From IMG/VR virus record IMGVR_UViG_3300046012_000441, positions 1-32,766 of that record: a DNA stretch of 32,766 bases; one strand, given 5' to 3'. Shown here in pieces: positions 9,279 to 22,103 of the stretch (the stretch's first letter is position 1; every line of letters begins with the position of its first letter). The DNA is from a virus. The notes under the pieces are model-generated. The model had not been told where the DNA came from. It saw only the letters and a program-made list of their open reading frames with translations, and made no database searches. The position numbers and the translations under genes are program-made.

Positions 9279-9326
9279 AGTGGAAGCAAACGAAAATCGG
9301 CGTAAGTCAAACAAGTGGGTGGCCTG

Positions 9327-10472
9327 ATGGCTCAGAAGCGTGTAGTCCCAGCAGACACTGTGCCGATGTCGGAAGATCAGACAAAGATCACTGATCCGTT
9401 GTCTGCACCTGAATGTATTGCTGAGATCCGTCGTATTGCTGAGGCTTTCCCTGATAAAGCTTTAAGCAGAAACTTTTTCCGTGTTCATGCACGGATTGCT
9501 GAAAGTGTCTGGTCACGTCACTTCGGAACGTGGCAGGAAGCGAAGCGCCAAGCTGGTGTGTTGCTCACACGTCATCAACACCGCATGGAACTCGACGTTG
9601 CGAAGCATGCAAGTGTTGATAGCTTCCGTCAGATGAACATCGACAAGTCCGGTTGGGAGGATAAATACCTTCGTCCCAACAAAGCTCGCTTCCAGACGAT
9701 GCTTATTGGAAGCGACATCCACGATAAGGATTGTGACCTTCTATGGAGACGTACGTTTTTAGATACGGCAAAACGTGTGCAACCGGAGAAGATAATTCTC
9801 AACGGTGACGTGTATGACGCTCCTGAATTCGGCAAGTATCCAGTTGACCCCCGGGAATGGGACGTTGTTGGTCGGATAAAATGGGTTCACCAGTTTCTCG
9901 CCGACCTCCGCAAGGTTGCCCCTAACGCTGAGATTACATTGGTCGCTGGAAACCATGAGGACCGTCTGCTGCGACACCTCGCTGAGGCCTCGCCAGCTAT
10001 GCGTGCGGTTCTCTCTGACCTGCATGGCTTCACGGTTTCGAAACTCCTGGGCCTCGAGGCTTATGAGGTTAACTTTATCTCGAGAAACGATTTGGCGACA
10101 TTCACAGTTGCCGATGCGAAGAAAGAAGTCGCCAAAAACTACACGATTTCCTATGACGCTGTCCTCTGCCATCACTTCCCTTTTGGCCGTGACATGGGCT
10201 ATCCAGGCGGCAACGGTCATGATCACAAACATATCGTGTGGCCGGGGTACTCACCAGCGTTTGGGCCATTCGAATGGCATCAACTTGGTTGCGGCCACAA
10301 GCGGGCGGCGAGCTACACGGCTGGTGAGAAATGGGCTCTCGGCTTCATGTTGGCACACGTCGATCGCCTCAGTCGTCGCACACAGTTCGAATACATTGAT
10401 GTGCAGGATCACGTCGTCATCGGTGGTAAATGGTACGAACGCACTCAAGAAGAGTTCGTGCATCTTTCGTAA
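9327..10472 (+). CDS. Metallophosphoesterase with N-terminal HNH-associated repeat
   Basis: The C-terminal two thirds carry the calcineurin-like phosphoesterase signature in order: SDIH (129-132), GDVYD (160-164), GNHED (208-212), CHH (281-283) and GCGHKR (321-326). The last motif normally reads GHxH; here the final His is replaced. The N-terminal part (about 30-76, with SRNFFRVHARIAESVWSRHFGTWQEAKRQAG split over 47-77) resembles the homing-endonuclease-associated repeat, a small DNA-binding module. The fusion suggests a phosphoesterase or nuclease targeted to DNA. ATG 9327 follows GGTGG and is preferred to GTG 9315. Its place between portal and capsid genes is unusual. Confidence 0.88.
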   Translation: MAQKRVVPADTVPMSEDQTKITDPLSAPECIAEIRRIAEAFPDKALSRNFFRVHARIAESVWSRHFGTWQEAKRQAGVLLTRHQHRMELDVAKHASVDSFRQMNIDKSGWEDKYLRPNKARFQTMLIGSDIHDKDCDLLWRRTFLDTAKRVQPEKIILNGDVYDAPEFGKYPVDPREWDVVGRIKWVHQFLADLRKVAPNAEITLVAGNHEDRLLRHLAEASPAMRAVLSDLHGFTVSKLLGLEAYEVNFISRNDLATFTVADAKKEVAKNYTISYDAVLCHHFPFGRDMGYPGGNGHDHKHIVWPGYSPAFGPFEWHQLGCGHKRAASYTAGEKWALGFMLAHVDRLSRRTQFEYIDVQDHVVIGGKWYERTQEEFVHLS

Positions 10473-10490
10473 CCAATAAAACTCATAGCG

Positions 10491-10548
10491 AGACAACTAC
10501 CGTTAGAGGTTTCTTCGACAACGAGGAAGCCTCTGATAGGAGTTGTCT
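10491..10548 (+). promoter_or_regulatory. Two-tier hairpin enclosing the ribosome binding site
   Basis: An outer 8-bp stem (10491-10498 with 10541-10548) encloses an inner 13-bp stem with two G-U pairs (10505-10517 with 10522-10534, loop ACAA). The ribosome binding site TAGGAG (10537-10542) falls in the 3' strand at the junction, and the ATG at 10551 lies 2 bases beyond the outer stem. Folding would hide the start region of the first exported protein gene, which suggests translational control. Confidence 0.6.
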
Positions 10549-10550
10549 AA

Positions 10551-11147
10551 ATGCGTTTCGTCTTTGCCCTTATTGCAGCGTTGCTGGCATTCGCATCGAA
10601 CGCACAAGCTGATCACTTCTTGGGTGGCATAGTTGGTCTCGCGACTACGCCCGAGGCGACGTTCACGATGCCAACCACTGGCATTGCACATGCCACCGGC
10701 TCGATCCTCTGCCACGAGAGCACGGCACCCTGCAGCGACATTCAATGGCAGGTGTCCCCGGTCAGCAACGGTGTCTATCGCACCACCGCGATCGTTCTGA
10801 CGAAGAACAACACCACGACCACCAACGCAGCTTTCCGTCTGTGGTTCTACAACGCGGCGCTAACCTTGACTGGGATCAAGGACGGTGACGCCTATTCCCC
10901 CAAGCTTGCTGATCATGCGACGCGCAAGGGTTACGTCGACTGCAACCTCGCGATCCAAAACGTCGACAACGTCAGCTTCTACTGCACGCCCCCAAATGGC
11001 AGCTTCATCGACCTGCAGGCCGACACGACTGGCAAGGTGCACGGTTGGATGCAGAACAACTCTGGTGGATCCTACACCGCTGCAAACAGCGAGATTTGGT
11101 ACCTCGACCTGATTGGTCAACCTATGTCTGGCTCGGCGGTGCAGTAA
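10551..11147 (+). CDS. Exported protein, 198 aa, beta-rich
   Basis: A clear Sec signal peptide (MRFVFALIAALLAFASNAQA, cleavage predicted after NAQA at residue 20) is followed by a Thr/Asn-rich beta-type domain with four or five Cys. The segment NAAFRLWFYNAALTLTGIKD and GDAYSPKLAD (about 85-120) recall a family of small phage proteins whose core alternates a hydrophobic strand with a D-N/G-x-A-x-SP motif. That resemblance is from memory and moderate. It abuts the 847-aa gene exactly (TAA then ATG). Export is unexpected for a virion component built in the cytoplasm. A cell-surface or periplasmic role is an alternative. Confidence 0.75.
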   Translation: MRFVFALIAALLAFASNAQADHFLGGIVGLATTPEATFTMPTTGIAHATGSILCHESTAPCSDIQWQVSPVSNGVYRTTAIVLTKNNTTTTNAAFRLWFYNAALTLTGIKDGDAYSPKLADHATRKGYVDCNLAIQNVDNVSFYCTPPNGSFIDLQADTTGKVHGWMQNNSGGSYTAANSEIWYLDLIGQPMSGSAVQ

Positions 11148-13691
11148 ATGAAGCGTCTTCTAGCGCTCCTTTGGATTGCCGTTTGCTCGGTACTGCCAGC
11201 GTATGCTGATGACCTTCCGGTGCTCAGCCTTGCGCAACCGAAGCCCGCGATCTCTTGCCCGTTCTCTTCGTGGGACGCTACGCAGCCGTTCCCGACGGCG
11301 CTCTGCCCGTTCGGTGCGCCGGGTAGCGCCACATCCGTCAACACCTCGCCGTCGACCGAGTTCGACAAGTTCGGCAACCTCGTCTACGCGCCGAACAATC
11401 AGATCCGCAATTCGACGATGCAAGGGGCTAGTGCGGGCAACGCGCCGAGCCGATGGAATGGCTTTTCCACGGGCAACGGAATCACTGTCGCGGTGACCGG
11501 CACGGAAGTGATCAACGGCATCACTTATGTCGACGGTTCGATCACAGGTACTGCGACGGCGAGCGGCAACATCAGCGTTACCGCCGAGAACACGACATCG
11601 ATTCCGGCCGCCCCTGGCCAGACGTGGACAGAATCCGAGAGCGTCGCCGCGACCAATAACGGTGCCGCGACTTTTGGAACGATAGGCTTGCAGATCAACG
11701 AGGCAAATAGCAGCGGGACGTTTCTTCAGGCACATTTCAAGACGATCTCGCCGACGGCCACACCACAACCATTTTCTGGCAGCTTCGTGCTGGTTAATGC
11801 CTCGGTGGCGTTTGCGCAGCCGGTCGCTTTCGTCGCCAGCTACACGTCCGGCCAGACCTATAGCTATTCGTTCAAGCTTGGCGCCCCCCAACTCGAAATC
11901 CAAACCCCGGCTCAGAACGGCACGCCGTCACCATACTACGCGACGGGCGTCGCTCCCTATTTCGGCCCGCGCATCACCTTCGATCCGGCGACGCCGAACC
12001 TCGGCATCGCGCAGAATTATTTCCACAACAGCGCGATGGTCGGCGCGAGCGCGGGGACGCCTGGGATTTTTCCCACGACTTGGGGGTTTCAGGGCAGCAC
12101 GCCTGCGACGCTTAACTTAGCGAGCCAAGTCGTTGCGACCGGAATCGATGCAACGACCGGATACCACTACATAGACTATCGACTGTTCGGAACGCCGAAT
12201 TTGACCACCGGCGCCGGGTTGTACTTTGACTCAAACACCAGCATTAGCGCCGCGACCGGTCAAACGTGGTCCTCGACCGTATTTCTGTCTTTGGTCGGCG
12301 GCTCGCTAACAAACGTCGTTGCCGTGAATGGGAATGTTCATGGGCGAAATAGCGCAGGAGGAGGAGCGGAAAGCTCAAGCACGCCCATTGCTTTGACAAG
12401 CAAGCCAACACCGGTCACGGCGATAAGGACGATGAACAACAGCGCAACCGCTTTTGCCTCGGGCGGATTCGCAATCAATCTCACCAACGGTCAGCCGATC
12501 GACATCACAATTCGCATCGAGGCGCCTCAACTCTCGCTTGGCGGCGTCGCGCCCTATGTCGCGACCACCGGCACGGCCATCCCGGCGACGTTCACCGCGC
12601 TCGGGTATCTGCCGGAGCAGCCAGAAACCGAGGGAATCCGCAACAACACGATGCAAGGCGCCGTGGCGGAAACGCCCGGCACGAGCCCGACCGATTGGTC
12701 GGGTGCATGGACCTTGGCGACGGGTCTCTCGCAGACCGTCGTTGGGACGGGGACCGAGAACGGAATTCCTTACATCGACTTCCGAATTTTCGGGACAGCG
12801 ACGGCGACAACCCCAGGCCAAATCGGATTTGAGGGCACGCAAGTCATCGCTGCCGTTAACGGGCAGGTGTGGACGCAGGCGATTTATGCCCGTCTCATCG
12901 CGGGGAGTTTTGCAAATATCAGCGGTCTTCGCCTTGTCGTCTCGCAACGCGCAAGTGACGGAACTGTGCTGACGGAGTTGCAGGCGACAACTCTCTCGCC
13001 GACGGGCGCTCCTCTCAATACACAACGCAAGTCGGGCACGGTCACGTTGAACACCTCTCTGGTCGCATTTGTTGAGCCCAAGATGTTCTTCACGCAGGCT
13101 CTAGGAGCGGTCGACTTCACGCTGCGCATCGGCGAGCCGTCGCTCGCGCAGACTCCAACGCTGTTGTCGAACATCTTGACCTATGGCGCGACGACAACGC
13201 GCAACGCCGATTTGATGAGCATGGCCCTTCCGGCGTGTCTCAAAAATCCGGCTTACGCTGGCTTAGTGTTGAATGGTGCGACCGCATCTGGAATCGGCAC
13301 GGCGGTTAATCAGTGGGCGCTGATCCTGTCCGACGGCACAGTGAACAACCGGTTTGGGTTTTATCGTTCTGCCACCAGCGGCAATCTCAATGTGTTGGTG
13401 GAAAATGGCGGATCTGTGGTCGTTAATAACGTGCTTTATGCTGCTGCGCCAGCCAATACAAATTTCGCTGAGTTTCTATCGGCCCGCACGGGACGATTTT
13501 CTGCTCAGGCTATCGGCCATACAGCCTTCTTGCAGAATTCGGGAGCAACGCCGAATGGGCTGACGACACTAAACGTCGGCACCGATTTTGTTGGCGCGAC
13601 GCAATTCGATGGTACGATTGCTGGCTTCCGGATGTATTGCGCCCCGGCCGCGAACGACAACTTTCTGTTCCAGAAAGCGAGCGGCCAATGA
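11148..13691 (+). CDS. Exported three-repeat fibre-like protein, 847 aa
   Basis: A signal peptide (residues 1-20, ending PAYA) precedes three repeats of about 180-200 residues: about 85-270, 289-475 and 496-670. Each starts with a RN(S/N)TMQGA-like motif and closes with (A/E)PQLE or GEPSLA followed in two cases by a PY-ATG stretch. Such modules, ending in QLE...PYiPTTG-type sequences, are common in phage tail fibres and carbohydrate-binding jelly rolls. The C-terminus (680-840) looks like a LamG-type beta sandwich. It probably binds glycans or a surface. Its location in the head operon and the signal peptide are both odd for a fibre. Confidence 0.75.
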   Translation: MKRLLALLWIAVCSVLPAYADDLPVLSLAQPKPAISCPFSSWDATQPFPTALCPFGAPGSATSVNTSPSTEFDKFGNLVYAPNNQIRNSTMQGASAGNAPSRWNGFSTGNGITVAVTGTEVINGITYVDGSITGTATASGNISVTAENTTSIPAAPGQTWTESESVAATNNGAATFGTIGLQINEANSSGTFLQAHFKTISPTATPQPFSGSFVLVNASVAFAQPVAFVASYTSGQTYSYSFKLGAPQLEIQTPAQNGTPSPYYATGVAPYFGPRITFDPATPNLGIAQNYFHNSAMVGASAGTPGIFPTTWGFQGSTPATLNLASQVVATGIDATTGYHYIDYRLFGTPNLTTGAGLYFDSNTSISAATGQTWSSTVFLSLVGGSLTNVVAVNGNVHGRNSAGGGAESSSTPIALTSKPTPVTAIRTMNNSATAFASGGFAINLTNGQPIDITIRIEAPQLSLGGVAPYVATTGTAIPATFTALGYLPEQPETEGIRNNTMQGAVAETPGTSPTDWSGAWTLATGLSQTVVGTGTENGIPYIDFRIFGTATATTPGQIGFEGTQVIAAVNGQVWTQAIYARLIAGSFANISGLRLVVSQRASDGTVLTELQATTLSPTGAPLNTQRKSGTVTLNTSLVAFVEPKMFFTQALGAVDFTLRIGEPSLAQTPTLLSNILTYGATTTRNADLMSMALPACLKNPAYAGLVLNGATASGIGTAVNQWALILSDGTVNNRFGFYRSATSGNLNVLVENGGSVVVNNVLYAAAPANTNFAEFLSARTGRFSAQAIGHTAFLQNSGATPNGLTTLNVGTDFVGATQFDGTIAGFRMYCAPAANDNFLFQKASGQ

Positions 13692-14053
13692 GCGGTCGCG
13701 CCTGGATCAACGCGCTCGCGCTCTCGATCCCGCTCTGGGCGGCGATCATCTTCGCGCTCGCCGGCTGCGGCGATCGTGCGACCGACGCGCCGGCTTTGCC
13801 GGGCGTCGTCGACAATGTCCGCTTCACCACGCCGGACGAACAGCGCCAGCTTTGTCATCGCAACTCGCGGTGGTCGCAGGCCTGCATGCTCTCGGCCACG
13901 GGCCAGATCGTCATGCCGCTGCCGCAATACTTTCCGAACGAAGAATACGCGCGGCTGTGGCTGTGGGAGCTGGCCCATCGCCAGCAGCATTGGCCCGATC
14001 CGCCGGCGATCGCGGCACAGTTGCGCGCGGACGACGCGAAAGGGACGCCATGA
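13688..14053 (+). CDS. Lipoprotein or membrane-anchored protein, 121 aa
   Basis: The start overlaps the 847-aa gene stop (ATGA). The N-terminus is hydrophobic (ALALSIPLWAAIIFALAGC) and ends in the lipobox LAGC, so lipid anchoring at Cys23 is likely. The mature domain has two further Cys and a segment PNEEYARLWLWELAHRQQHW near 85-104. This segment looks like a degraded HExxH metal-binding motif (WELAH, first His lost); activity is therefore doubtful. The stop overlaps the next start (ATGA). It is part of the exported cassette and possibly keeps its partners at the membrane. Confidence 0.7.
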   Translation: MSGRAWINALALSIPLWAAIIFALAGCGDRATDAPALPGVVDNVRFTTPDEQRQLCHRNSRWSQACMLSATGQIVMPLPQYFPNEEYARLWLWELAHRQQHWPDPPAIAAQLRADDAKGTP

Positions 14054-14493
14054 CGATCAACCTCAGCTTCGTCCCGTTCCGCATCGATCCGGCCGCCGAT
14101 GAGGCTACGGCGGGTACCGCGTTCCTTACCGGCTTCAATGCGTTCCTCGCGGCGAACGGCTATCCGGTGCTTCCCGTCGTCGGTGATCCGATCATTCTCG
14201 ATGTCACGCGGATGGATTTCGACGGGCCGTTCCTACTGGCGAACGGTTTCTGGCACGTCAACGCTTCGGTGGCGACGCTCTCCAATGCCGACCCGACCAC
14301 CGCCTTCGCCATGCAGGCTGTGCTTGCCGCGCAGATTGATGCGTGGTTCGGTGCCGATCAAACCGAATACCCGGTCTGCCCCGATCTCGCCGCCTATACC
14401 AGCCCGCTCGATCCGCACCAGCAATGGCCGAGCGATCGGGTAAACGGCGTCGTGCTGCTCGATCCCCCGCCCGAGAGCCGCCAGCGGCGTTGA
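14050..14493 (+). CDS. Hypothetical protein, 147 aa
   Basis: The protein is not recognised. It starts in the ATGA overlap with the lipoprotein gene and is the last gene of the cassette. The sequence (MTINLSFVPFRIDPAADEATAG...) has no signal peptide, an Ala-rich helical middle (TTAFAMQAVLAAQIDAWF, about 92-109) and a Pro-rich, basic C-terminus. Unlike its neighbours it looks cytoplasmic. It may act as a chaperone or assembly factor for the exported proteins, which is inference from position only. Confidence 0.7.
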   Translation: MTINLSFVPFRIDPAADEATAGTAFLTGFNAFLAANGYPVLPVVGDPIILDVTRMDFDGPFLLANGFWHVNASVATLSNADPTTAFAMQAVLAAQIDAWFGADQTEYPVCPDLAAYTSPLDPHQQWPSDRVNGVVLLDPPPESRQRR

Positions 14494-14540
14494 TGCATCT
14501 ACAATCATAAAGCATCACTATTTCTTTTTGACCACAGACG

Positions 14541-14582
14541 ATTACTCAAGGTACTAGTTCATCACTGTAACCCTTGAGTAAT
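14541..14582. repeat. Inverted repeat ATTACTCAAGG / CCTTGAGTAAT
   Basis: Perfect 11-bp arms (14541-14551 and 14572-14582) surround a 20-base spacer, just upstream of the protease start. The core word TGAGTAAT also forms the stem of a hairpin before the HNH gene (21403-21431). It may be an operator with two half-sites, or an RNA hairpin in the protease leader. A TTG at 14574 lies inside the right arm. Confidence 0.55.
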
Positions 14583-14588
14583 TACCCC

Positions 14589-15767
14589 GTGGCAAAGCAG
14601 GTTCAAAAGGCACCCGATATCCTCGCGCAGATGACGAAAGTCCTCGGCGACGGTGTGGATGTTGCGAGCCTCCCAGTTTGGGAGGCTGTTGCCGCGAACA
14701 CTCTTCCGCTCCGCAAGCGCGGCTCGATCTACAACAAAGCGCAGATCCAGCAGTCATCCATGTCGGCGCTCGCCGATGCGATCAATGCGGGCGGTGCTCC
14801 ACTGCAGGTCATGCACGACGGCAGCACGCTGCCGATCGGTAAGGCGTTCATGGCACAGGTGGCGGGCTCTGAAGACATGCCCGAGCTTCGTGCACTGTTC
14901 TACGTCGACCCGACGAACGCGGCACATGTCAGCCAGCTCGACAATTCGACGATCGACGAAGTGAGCCTCGGCTTCCTCGCCGCGCACGCGCTCTGCAGCG
15001 AGTGTGGCTGGGACTATTTCGGTGACGATGCGACGATCATGAACTTCTTGGACCGCATGTGCGCCAATGAGCATGCGCTTGGCCAAGACGGTGTGCATCT
15101 GAACCTGTCTGGCCTCGATCGGCTCTACGAGCTGTCGCTCGTCAATACGGGTGCTGTCCAAAACGCCAAAATTCTATCCCGTAGCAAACAAGTGATGGGC
15201 GACGCCGGCACCGTCGGTCAGCGTCTTGCTGCTTCCGGCCTCGATCTCAACGTAGCGATCTGCTGCGCCTCAGCGAAGCTCACCAAAGAACCCGATCCCC
15301 GAGCCCTTGCGGCCAGTTCCCAGGAGAAATCGAATATGCCCGAAATCAACATCACCGAGCTGGTTACCAAGCTCGCGACCGCTGAGGCGGGCGTGCAGCT
15401 GAAGGACGCCAAGGTCACCGAGCTGACCGGTCAGGTGACCGCGCTCACGGCGCAGGTTGCCGAGCTGACCGCGAAGGTCGCGGCGCTCCCGAAGGATACC
15501 GCCGAGGTTCAGACGAAGCTCGATGCGGCGGTCAAGCAGAGCGACGTGGCTCTCGCGTTTCTGCGTGATCAGGCAACCAAGGCCGCGACTGCGGTTGGTG
15601 GTGATGTCTCGAAAATCGCCACGCTCTCGGTCGAGGATCTCAGCAAGATCATCACCGACGCACAGGCGAAGCTCTCCACCCTATTCCCGGCCGGCGGCAA
15701 GAGTGCTTCGGCTACACAGAACGATGCCGACGAGAAGCCTTCTCGTGCGGCCTTCAAGACCGCCTAA
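14589..15767 (+). CDS. Prohead protease with C-terminal scaffold domain, 392 aa
   Basis: The N-terminal part carries TIDEVSLGFLAAHA (about residue 125), resembling the conserved vSiGf segment around the catalytic Ser of S78-type prohead proteases. The C-terminal 140 residues are a Lys/Glu/Ala-rich coiled coil with heptads such as TELTGQVTALTAQVAELTAKVAAL, typical of a scaffold. An in-frame ATG at 15336 has its own ribosome binding site, so scaffold alone is probably made too. The start is uncertain: GTG 14589 is chosen, with TTG 14574 possible. Position before decoration and capsid genes fits the head-maturation role. Confidence 0.78.
   Translation: MAKQVQKAPDILAQMTKVLGDGVDVASLPVWEAVAANTLPLRKRGSIYNKAQIQQSSMSALADAINAGGAPLQVMHDGSTLPIGKAFMAQVAGSEDMPELRALFYVDPTNAAHVSQLDNSTIDEVSLGFLAAHALCSECGWDYFGDDATIMNFLDRMCANEHALGQDGVHLNLSGLDRLYELSLVNTGAVQNAKILSRSKQVMGDAGTVGQRLAASGLDLNVAICCASAKLTKEPDPRALAASSQEKSNMPEINITELVTKLATAEAGVQLKDAKVTELTGQVTALTAQVAELTAKVAALPKDTAEVQTKLDAAVKQSDVALAFLRDQATKAATAVGGDVSKIATLSVEDLSKIITDAQAKLSTLFPAGGKSASATQNDADEKPSRAAFKTA
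15322..15338 (+). promoter_or_regulatory. Internal ribosome binding site and start for scaffold
   Basis: AGGAG at 15322-15326 lies 9 bases before an in-frame ATG at 15336 inside the protease gene, exactly where the protease part ends and the coiled coil begins. Starting here gives a 143-residue protein (MPEINITELVTKLATAE...). Nested scaffold genes in head proteases (as lambda C/Nu3) are well known. Confidence 0.75.
15336..15767 (+). CDS. Nested scaffolding protein, 143 aa
   Basis: This is the in-frame C-terminal product expected from the internal start. It consists of a long heptad-repeat coiled coil (about residues 5-65), a helical middle (LDAAVKQSDVALAFLRDQATKAAT) and a short disordered acidic/basic tail. 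Scaffold proteins shape the prohead and are removed or cleaved during maturation by the protease encoded in the same frame. Separate expression is inferred from the ribosome binding site and from comparison with lambda-type phages, not shown. Confidence 0.65.
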   Translation: MPEINITELVTKLATAEAGVQLKDAKVTELTGQVTALTAQVAELTAKVAALPKDTAEVQTKLDAAVKQSDVALAFLRDQATKAATAVGGDVSKIATLSVEDLSKIITDAQAKLSTLFPAGGKSASATQNDADEKPSRAAFKTA

Positions 15768-17376: not shown

Positions 17377-17401
17377 CTCTAGGCGTTCGTCACATCGAAG
17401 G

Positions 17402-17437
17402 AAAACCCCGTTCGCTTTGCGGGCGGGGTTTTCTCTT
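17402..17437 (+). terminator. Intrinsic terminator after major capsid gene
   Basis: AAAACCCCG (17402-17410) pairs with CGGGGTTTT (17424-17432), with an extra CGC/GCG pairing inside the loop, then CTCTT. It lies 26 bases beyond the capsid stop codon. Downstream connector genes have no space for an obvious separate promoter, so partial read-through is probable. Confidence 0.85.
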
Positions 17438-20479: not shown

Positions 20480-21286
20480 ATGGCCGGCGAAGCAAAAACT
20501 GCATCTTTTAACTTGTCGACGGCCACGGTCATGATCGGCCCGACCGATAAGCTTTGGGACCTTGATCCGAGCACGCACTCGATCGGTCTCGTCAAGAACT
20601 TCTCGGTCACTGCCGCGCCGACCTACACCGAGCTGAACCAGGGCGTGAAGAACGACCTCGTCTACTCGGTGCTGACCGACAATAAGGTCTCGGCCACCTG
20701 CGAGGTCTACGAATACACCTCGAAGAACCTCGCCTATGGCCTGGGCCTGGACGGCTCGACGCTCGACACGATCTCACTGAGCCACAACATCAGTGCCGAC
20801 GTCGTTGGCAACGGTACGATTGCAACGGCGACGATCAATAGTGTGACCGATATCCACACCGACTTCATCGTCGGTAAGTCGCTGATGATCCAGGACATCG
20901 ACAACAAGGATCAGGTCCACATCGCGAAGGTCGTTTCCTCGACCTATGCCACCACCGTTCTTACGGTTGTGTTCGACAAGCCGCTCCCGGACGGCGTCAC
21001 CTACCACAGTGGGTCGCTTATCTCGCCGATCAATTCGATCAACGTCGGTGACAAGAGCGACCAGCCGTTCTTCGCGGCCAAGGTCGTTGGCGTGCTGCCG
21101 CAAGACAGCGAGCCCTGTGTCCTACTCATTCCGAAACTAAGAATAACAAAAGGATTCACGCTCGCGTTCAATAGCTCGCAGTTCGGTAACCTACCTTTTG
21201 AGATGACTCCGTATACCCCGGTCTCAACCGACGATAACTACAGCGAGTTCAAGGGTATGATGGCGAAGATTTACGATCGCACGTAA
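20480..21286 (+). CDS. Major tail tube protein, 268 aa
   Basis: The product is beta-rich throughout, with Thr/Ser/Val alternation and few helices. Its position just upstream of the chaperone pair and tape measure, and the strong terminator directly after it, are typical of the highly expressed tail-tube gene. The middle (about 95-190, NISADVVGNGTIATATINSVTDIHTDFIVGKSL...) looks like an extra beta domain inserted into the tube fold. No sheath gene is adjacent, so the tail is non-contractile. The ribosome binding site CAGGAG precedes the ATG. Confidence 0.8.
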   Translation: MAGEAKTASFNLSTATVMIGPTDKLWDLDPSTHSIGLVKNFSVTAAPTYTELNQGVKNDLVYSVLTDNKVSATCEVYEYTSKNLAYGLGLDGSTLDTISLSHNISADVVGNGTIATATINSVTDIHTDFIVGKSLMIQDIDNKDQVHIAKVVSSTYATTVLTVVFDKPLPDGVTYHSGSLISPINSINVGDKSDQPFFAAKVVGVLPQDSEPCVLLIPKLRITKGFTLAFNSSQFGNLPFEMTPYTPVSTDDNYSEFKGMMAKIYDRT

Positions 21287-21347: not shown

Positions 21348-21375
21348 CCCCGGAGCATTTTGGCTCCGGGGTTTT
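21348..21375 (+). terminator. Strong intrinsic terminator after tail tube gene
   Basis: CCCCGGAGC (21348-21356) pairs perfectly with GCTCCGGGG (21363-21371) around a 6-base loop and is followed by TTTTATT. This is a textbook rho-independent terminator that closes the tail-tube transcript. Confidence 0.92.
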
Positions 21376-21402
21376 ATTGTGTGTTAGAATTCAAAATATT
21401 GT

Positions 21403-21431
21403 TGAGTAATAGAAGCCTGATCTATTACTCA
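21403..21431 (+). repeat. Hairpin TGAGTAATAG / CTATTACTCA
   Basis: Perfect 10-bp arms (21403-21412, 21422-21431) flank a 9-base loop, immediately before the HNH ribosome binding site and ATG (21438). The word TGAGTAAT is shared with the inverted repeat at 14541-14582. It may limit translation of the endonuclease or be a protein-binding site. Confidence 0.55.
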
Positions 21432-21437
21432 TCAAGG

Positions 21438-22103
21438 ATGTATTCCGCACGAGCTGAAGCAAAGGGAGCGGGGGAGAAGCATTACTTCACTGGAAGGCGC
21501 TGCAAACACGGCCATATAGCAAAGCGGTTTGCCTCAACTGGACAATGCACGGCTTGTCTAGATGGTTACTGTGCCATGTATCGTCAGGACCATGTTGAAG
21601 TCCTTCGTGATAAATGTTCCCGCTGGCGAAAATCAAATCCTGAGAAAAGCCGTCGAAGTAATATCCAATGGAAAATAGAACATCGCGAACGAAGTCGTTC
21701 AACCTCCATGGCGTGGAAGAAAGCCAACCCTGGAAAAGTTGTTGCACAGATTGCCCTACGGAAAGCCCGAAAGATCCAGGCAACACCTTCTTGGGCCGAT
21801 TTGCAACTTATCTCGGACATTTACGATTTCGCAGCCTTTCGATCTCGTCGAGAGGGTATTAAATACCATGTTGATCATGTGCTACCACTAAAGGGCGAAA
21901 ACGTCTGTGGCCTTCACATCGAGAACAACCTTGTGATCTTACCGGCGACTGAAAATATTAGAAAAAGCAATGGCTTAGATCCAATCCTCTTGGTCCATTT
22001 GGAACACGAACAAACGGCCCGGGCTAATCTAGCTATTGAACTGGATCGTCGGACAGCATTAGATACTGGGAGCGAACTTTCAGAGGAACCTCAATGCGCA
22101 TAA
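21438..22103 (+). CDS. HNH homing endonuclease, 221 aa
   Basis: The N-terminus has a zinc-knuckle-like segment, CKHGH (22-26) and CTAC (37-40), as in many phage HNH proteins. The C-terminal part holds the HNH/beta-beta-alpha-metal nuclease: YHVDHVLPL (143-151), then IENNLVILPATENIRKSN (161-178), with Asp146-His147 and the Asn residues as expected catalytic or metal ligands. The middle is basic and helical, suited to DNA binding. It is probably a free-standing homing endonuclease inserted after the tail-tube terminator. It has lower GC than its neighbours. The ATG follows AAGG; the hairpin just before it may restrain expression. Confidence 0.85.
   Translation: MYSARAEAKGAGEKHYFTGRRCKHGHIAKRFASTGQCTACLDGYCAMYRQDHVEVLRDKCSRWRKSNPEKSRRSNIQWKIEHRERSRSTSMAWKKANPGKVVAQIALRKARKIQATPSWADLQLISDIYDFAAFRSRREGIKYHVDHVLPLKGENVCGLHIENNLVILPATENIRKSNGLDPILLVHLEHEQTARANLAIELDRRTALDTGSELSEEPQCA

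Follow-up and report, generated by a model that had tools for sequence, protein, structure and literature searches.

Structural proteins of phages fold and assemble in the cytoplasm of the host. A lectin of fibre type that carries a Sec signal is therefore unexpected in a head operon. A gene predicted to encode such a protein lies with three close neighbours among the head genes of the virus record analysed here (an IMG/VR record of 32,766 bases, taken at its full length and referred to as the window). What are these four genes, named A to D below, doing at this position? A previous reading made from the DNA letters alone (the sequence-only reading) had singled them out as a cassette for exported proteins; here we examine the locus by comparison with related phages, signal prediction, structural modelling and searches for homologs.

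Results

An accessory insertion in the head operon

The window encodes terminase (phrog_675), portal (phrog_3753), major capsid (phrog_3922) and scaffold/protease-like (phrog_37797) proteins, and its primase, terminase, portal, scaffold/protease-like, major capsid and tape measure genes group it with five siphophages: Caulobacter phage Seuss, Achromobacter phage JWF, Xylophilus phage Lumi, Pseudoalteromonas phage KB12-38 and Acinetobacter phage EAb13. By these matches it is a Seuss/JWF-like siphophage. Genes A to D are read in one direction between a metallophosphoesterase (MPE) gene and the scaffold/protease-like gene (Table 1). All four open reading frames are present where the sequence-only reading had placed them, and the tight coupling that it described is real: the ATG of B directly follows the TAA stop codon of A, and the B/C and C/D overlaps both consist of ATGA. 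The downstream gene, which had been taken for a prohead protease, belongs to a family of unknown function, and its product displays a weak scaffold match in its C-terminal half. The TTG start listed for this gene is overlapped by hairpin 2, and its true start may be the GTG at 14589.

Table 1. Features of the MPE and A to D region of the window.
Feature	Positions	Strand	Description
Metallophosphoesterase (MPE)	9315..10472	+	phrog_20266; first gene of the insertion
Gene A	10551..11147	+	198 aa; predicted Sec signal peptide; ATG 10551
Gene B	11148..13691	+	847 aa; predicted Sec signal peptide; predicted CBM4-like and lectin domains; ATG 11148
Gene C	13688..14053	+	121 aa; predicted lipoprotein; ATG 13688
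Gene D	14050..14493	+	147 aa; without signal peptide; ATG 14050
Hairpin 1	10491..10548	+	assessed by fold energy, shuffles and inverted-repeat ranking
Hairpin 2	14540..14583	+	precedes the scaffold/protease-like gene

The portal gene leads directly to the scaffold/protease-like gene in all eight relatives with a readable junction. The two genes are 5295 nt apart in the window (portal stop 9278, scaffold start 14574), as against 11-638 nt in the relatives. The individual gaps measure 638, 52, 61, 79 and 11 nt for the isolates, and for three IMG/VR contigs (L003, L004, L005) 17, 64 and 67 nt; in Seuss the junction holds a single small gene on the opposite strand. The suggestion that the cassette is an accessory insertion was thus confirmed by presence and absence, the module being missing from these eight relatives. 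Since the MPE gene is also missing between portal and scaffold in the relatives, the insertion includes it and is larger than 10551-14493: the accessory insertion in the head operon spans 9315-14493. The G+C content differs between C (0.68), D (0.64) and the MPE gene (0.52), compared with 0.56 for the whole window, which indicates that the insertion is itself a mosaic. No direct repeats or mobile-element signature were found flanking it. A chimeric assembly was considered and is unlikely, because the portal and scaffold genes, on either flank, match the same phage group.

The MPE matches phrog_20266 over most of its length (E 5.7e-112, residues 14-378, PHROG profile), and its N-terminal region resembles a homing-endonuclease-associated repeat (PF18780, 24.4 bits, just below the cut-off). 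In two Stenotrophomonas phages (PQ434692, OR529408) the MPE-matching gene is in two pieces, and one of these records carries a LAGLIDADG homing endonuclease annotation at the split gene, suggesting an intein or intron.

Both hairpins noticed by the sequence-only reading are real; they are not, as it had supposed, the boundaries of the insertion, since hairpin 1 lies inside it and flanking direct repeats are lacking. Hairpin 1 is the best inverted repeat of the window (-37.1 kcal/mol, z -8.2, 0 of 200 shuffles) and hairpin 2 is weaker. The 3' arm of hairpin 1 contains the AGGAG Shine-Dalgarno sequence of gene A, and the structure is a possible translational switch or RNase III site. As B, C and D each abut or overlap the preceding gene, it could set the translation of the whole unit. 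Promoter and terminator scans gave nothing above shuffles, and Rfam gave no match.

Three other features of the window were observed. An Endonuclease VII-like gene (21360-22103), flanked by the gene at 20480 and that of the tape measure chaperone, combines the lowest G+C of the window (0.46) with its most atypical codon use and is probably another insertion. A strong inverted repeat (801-865, arms of about 30, -41 kcal/mol) is situated in the poorly annotated left end. A strong GC-rich hairpin ending T-rich (17400-17434) directly follows the major capsid gene on its 3' side and is likely a terminator; terminators are annotated at the matching place in Seuss and JWF.

Predicted export signals

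Signal peptides were scored by a rule-based method other than SignalP; the rule-based scores are a strong indication rather than a measurement. Gene A scores 43.5, with a predicted cleavage between MRFVFALIAALLAFASNAQA and DH (after AQA, residue 20), gene B scores 42.5, with a predicted cleavage between MKRLLALLWIAVCSVLPAYA and DD, and gene C scores 43.2 with a lipobox, LAGC; by the same rules D has no signal. Two Sec signal peptides and one likely lipoprotein, as first proposed, are thus recovered. Apart from the portal (24.1), no other gene of the window scores, and the 62 head and neck genes annotated in the five siphophages named above reach at most 22.3. The prediction that A, B and C leave the cytoplasm is well supported by these signals. 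Mature A and mature B have four cysteines each; such an even number is expected of disulphide-bonded exported proteins and counts for the export of both, but it is weak evidence, because even counts also occur in several unexported relatives of B.

Gene B, a predicted multivalent lectin

The fibre-type repeats ascribed to the large product are real, the internal repeats of B sharing about 30% identity. B itself is matched by neither PHROG nor Pfam profiles. Its relatives occur in 77 IMG/VR contigs and in Azospirillum phage Cd (gp49, 33.5% identity), and those of three contigs (L112, L114, L152) match phrog_5939, annotated as tail protein. One of them, in the tail region of a Noviherbaspirillum prophage (L114), is 35% identical over B residues 44-847 and has no signal peptide. 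An AlphaFold model of B made with 41 relatives has a mean pLDDT of 73.8. The structural matches of residues 82-252 in this model are to CBM4-2 modules (2y6j, with Z 14.6 and 2.5 A over 151 residues) and also to a domain of tailspike 4 of phage CBA120 (5w6h, Z 13.7). A strand near residue 35 joins the C-terminal domain, for which CBM40 lectins are matched (6er3, with Z 15.7 and 2.8 A over 159 residues). Repeats 2 and 3 are taken as CBM4-like on the basis of their homology to the first repeat and their predicted strand pattern. B is thus predicted to comprise three CBM4-like beta-sandwich domains and a C-terminal concanavalin-type lectin, and no enzyme or catalytic domain was detected in it. Adhesion or surface binding, as the sequence-only reading had suggested, fits these predicted folds, and by the same folds B may bind host glycans that serve as phage receptors; a fold shared with CBMs in a model, however, gives no sugar specificity.

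The appendage proteins of the phrog_5939 type and their kin, such as Cd gp49, RcapMu gp58 and Rhizobium phage P106B gp37, share homologous repeat domains with B and have CBM-like and lectin-like domains as B does, but these relatives have no signal peptide. Among 86 relatives of B, a signal peptide was found in only one (L112), on the only other contig with a homolog of gene C (69% identity). Some relatives follow tail genes (L105, L110, L058, L114). Others are located in head modules: after the major head protein (phrog_371) in L071 and L084, between terminase and portal in L152, and between portal (phrog_1216) and scaffold (phrog_3927) in L036, an unrelated phage. Position in a head operon is consequently not new for this family, whereas the signal peptide is. 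The remark that signal peptides are unexpected here therefore holds for the export signal, which is unusual, but not for the place, which signal-less relatives already occupy. B also lacks the usual N-terminal start of its family. By sequence, B is best described as an exported derivative of a phrog_5939-type appendage (tail) family.

Genes A, C and D

A pattern scan for the motif HExxHxNGWP retrieved small exported phage proteins from 75 IMG/VR contigs. The corresponding HExxHxNGWPxxH family (loci L122-L196) consists of proteins of roughly 100-120 aa and is widespread and little annotated. A signal peptide or lipobox is scored in 46 of the 75; the best that Pfam offers is a weak Zincin-like match, and the metallo-protease match in PHROGs is likewise weak. 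Against a profile of 19 members, gene C obtains 25.6 bits (E 2.3e-6 against 2002 sequences), while the best of 2000 shuffles obtains 8.1 bits. Like many of these proteins, which are near the phrog_87 metallo-protease, C has an export signal, but it differs from them at the putative active site: WELAH replaces HExxH, with W for the first histidine, and no histidine follows WP (WELAHRQQHWPDPP). C is thus a degenerate homolog of an exported HExxH metallopeptidase-like family, presumably inactive as a peptidase. A further candidate relative of C (L113) was dropped, since its match is limited to the signal/lipobox region.

In the terminase-portal interval of L152 (2963-4976), a small protein, the B relative and a full-motif HExxH protein are encoded in A-B-C order, the last directly after the B relative as in the window. 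The small protein (150 aa) has no detectable similarity to A. Scans of annotated phages, of 398 Pseudomonadota genomes and, by pattern, of IMG/VR, all of which reach close relatives only, returned no relative of A or of D. The AlphaFold model of A, made without relatives, is unusable (pLDDT 35.6).

Parallel MPE loci in other phages

The MPE family of the window was found at 23 IMG/VR loci. A signal-peptide gene is located between the MPE and terminase genes in L008, L009, L025, L021 and L024. No such gene is present at this place in L010, L013, L016, L020, L023 and L027, among others, and L014 has a signal-peptide gene of that kind elsewhere. In the two proteins tested (L008, L021) the C-terminal half is matched by phrog_32740, annotated as tail fiber protein (E 1e-15 and 1e-13). 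Among these parallel proteins the signal sequence varies at 4 to 9 of its 18 residues, yet each one has an early basic residue, a hydrophobic core and an AxA motif. By comparison, BcepF1 gp12, which is related to the middle part of the phrog_32740-type fibre-like proteins, has no signal peptide.

The Burkholderia-type phages (L008, L021, L024) offer a parallel to the window: their MPE is 62-64% identical to that of the window and is followed by a signal-peptide fibre-like gene beside packaging or head genes. The fibre-like protein itself (238-245 aa, phrog_32740) has no similarity to A or B, and its gene precedes the terminase genes, whereas the genes of the window stand between portal and scaffold. 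Nothing like the hairpin before gene A was found when hairpins were sought at the start codons of the Burkholderia-type signal-peptide genes, and this structure is thus not a common feature. Further signal-peptide proteins that look fibre-like by eye occur in L112, L148, L150, L165 and L179; among those tested, only the one in L179 has a tail fiber match. The window thus belongs, with these and the parallel MPE loci, to a wider pattern. In L026, the region from the MPE gene to the terminase small subunit gene (11174-12798) contains a collagen-like gene of tail-fibre type and two more small genes without signal peptides; this is another variant at the variable MPE-terminase junction.

Discussion

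We tentatively favor, at somewhat less than an even chance, a scheme in which A to D constitute a late-expressed export module, whose lectin, B, attaches to host glycans, either at the envelope or once the cell has lysed, and thereby probably masks receptors. Late expression is deduced from the position in the head operon, and the role of B outside the cytoplasm from its lectin folds and its origin in appendage proteins. In this scheme, A and B would pass through Sec to the periplasm, C would be anchored as a lipoprotein and D would stay in the cytoplasm. B, a multivalent lectin derived from a phage appendage protein that acquired a signal peptide, would bind glycans of the host surface, either working outward from the periplasm or once lysis has released it; Sec export by itself places B in the periplasm and not on the outer surface. 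Receptors would then be covered on the infected cell as well as on debris and neighboring cells, which would reduce superinfection and the wasteful adsorption of progeny. C, having presumably lost a peptidase-type active site, may be a membrane-anchored partner of B. The hairpin over the ribosome-binding site of A could hold the translation of A to D low until transcripts are processed, or are started inside the hairpin.

Exported phage proteins acting at the host envelope are known: Llp of T5, Cor of phi80 and HK phages, and Lom and Bor of lambda are superinfection-exclusion lipoproteins or surface morons. Set beside these by description, the A to D module is likewise proposed to supply exported proteins that act at the envelope, but the known proteins are small, and the large multi-lectin and separate lipoprotein of the window are not typical of them.

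Two other uses of an exported B have to be weighed. B, and perhaps A, may be virion appendages that are exported first and attached to heads or tails after holin action or lysis, the signal peptide allowing disulphides to form ahead of assembly. The relatives of B without signals, annotated as tail or appendage proteins (including the phrog_5939 matches) and able to sit in head modules, once between portal and scaffold, favor a virion role, and the even cysteine counts agree with it. However, B lacks the usual N-terminal start of its family, and a search of the literature for signal peptides on structural or fibre proteins of phages, in which subscription journals were thinly covered, returned no precedent on point; we consider such assembly outside the cell unlikely. 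The module might instead act on the host envelope in another way, as a lysis aid, in cell aggregation, in biofilm attachment or in lysogenic conversion. Here the membership of C in an exported peptidase-like family and the location of the L112 signal-peptide proteins near endolysin and nuclease genes are suggestive, but the zinc ligands are missing from C, no catalytic domain was detected in B and, as far as we can judge, nothing in the window points to lysogeny, so that this explanation also has little likelihood in our view. Least likely, and quite improbable, is that B is an ordinary head fibre assembled in the cytoplasm, as its unexported relatives in head modules of unrelated phages (L036, L152) might suggest, the hydrophobic N-termini of A and B being unused for export or serving only as anchors: canonical export signals, lipobox included, occur in three of the four adjacent genes, none comparable is seen in the 62 head and neck genes of relatives, and the parallel cases have retained their signal features despite sequence divergence.

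Returning to the receptor-masking export module, a broader scheme can be envisaged, although we hold it to be doubtful. In it, phages would on many occasions have made free lectins, exported by Sec, out of the domains of appendages (fibres). These lectins would be encoded by exchangeable genes beside the packaging and head genes, often next to an MPE gene of the family seen here, and would cover receptors on host cells and debris and so steer the adsorption of progeny. If this is true, the window would be the most elaborate example of such a free fibre found here, having both a lipoprotein of its own as partner and a ribosome-binding site covered by a hairpin. The Burkholderia-type phages provide pairs with and without the gene that are directly comparable. 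If these proteins are indeed secreted, phages would deploy their receptor-binding domains in soluble form against the surface of the host, and would thus possess an added route to superinfection exclusion or to the control of progeny adsorption.
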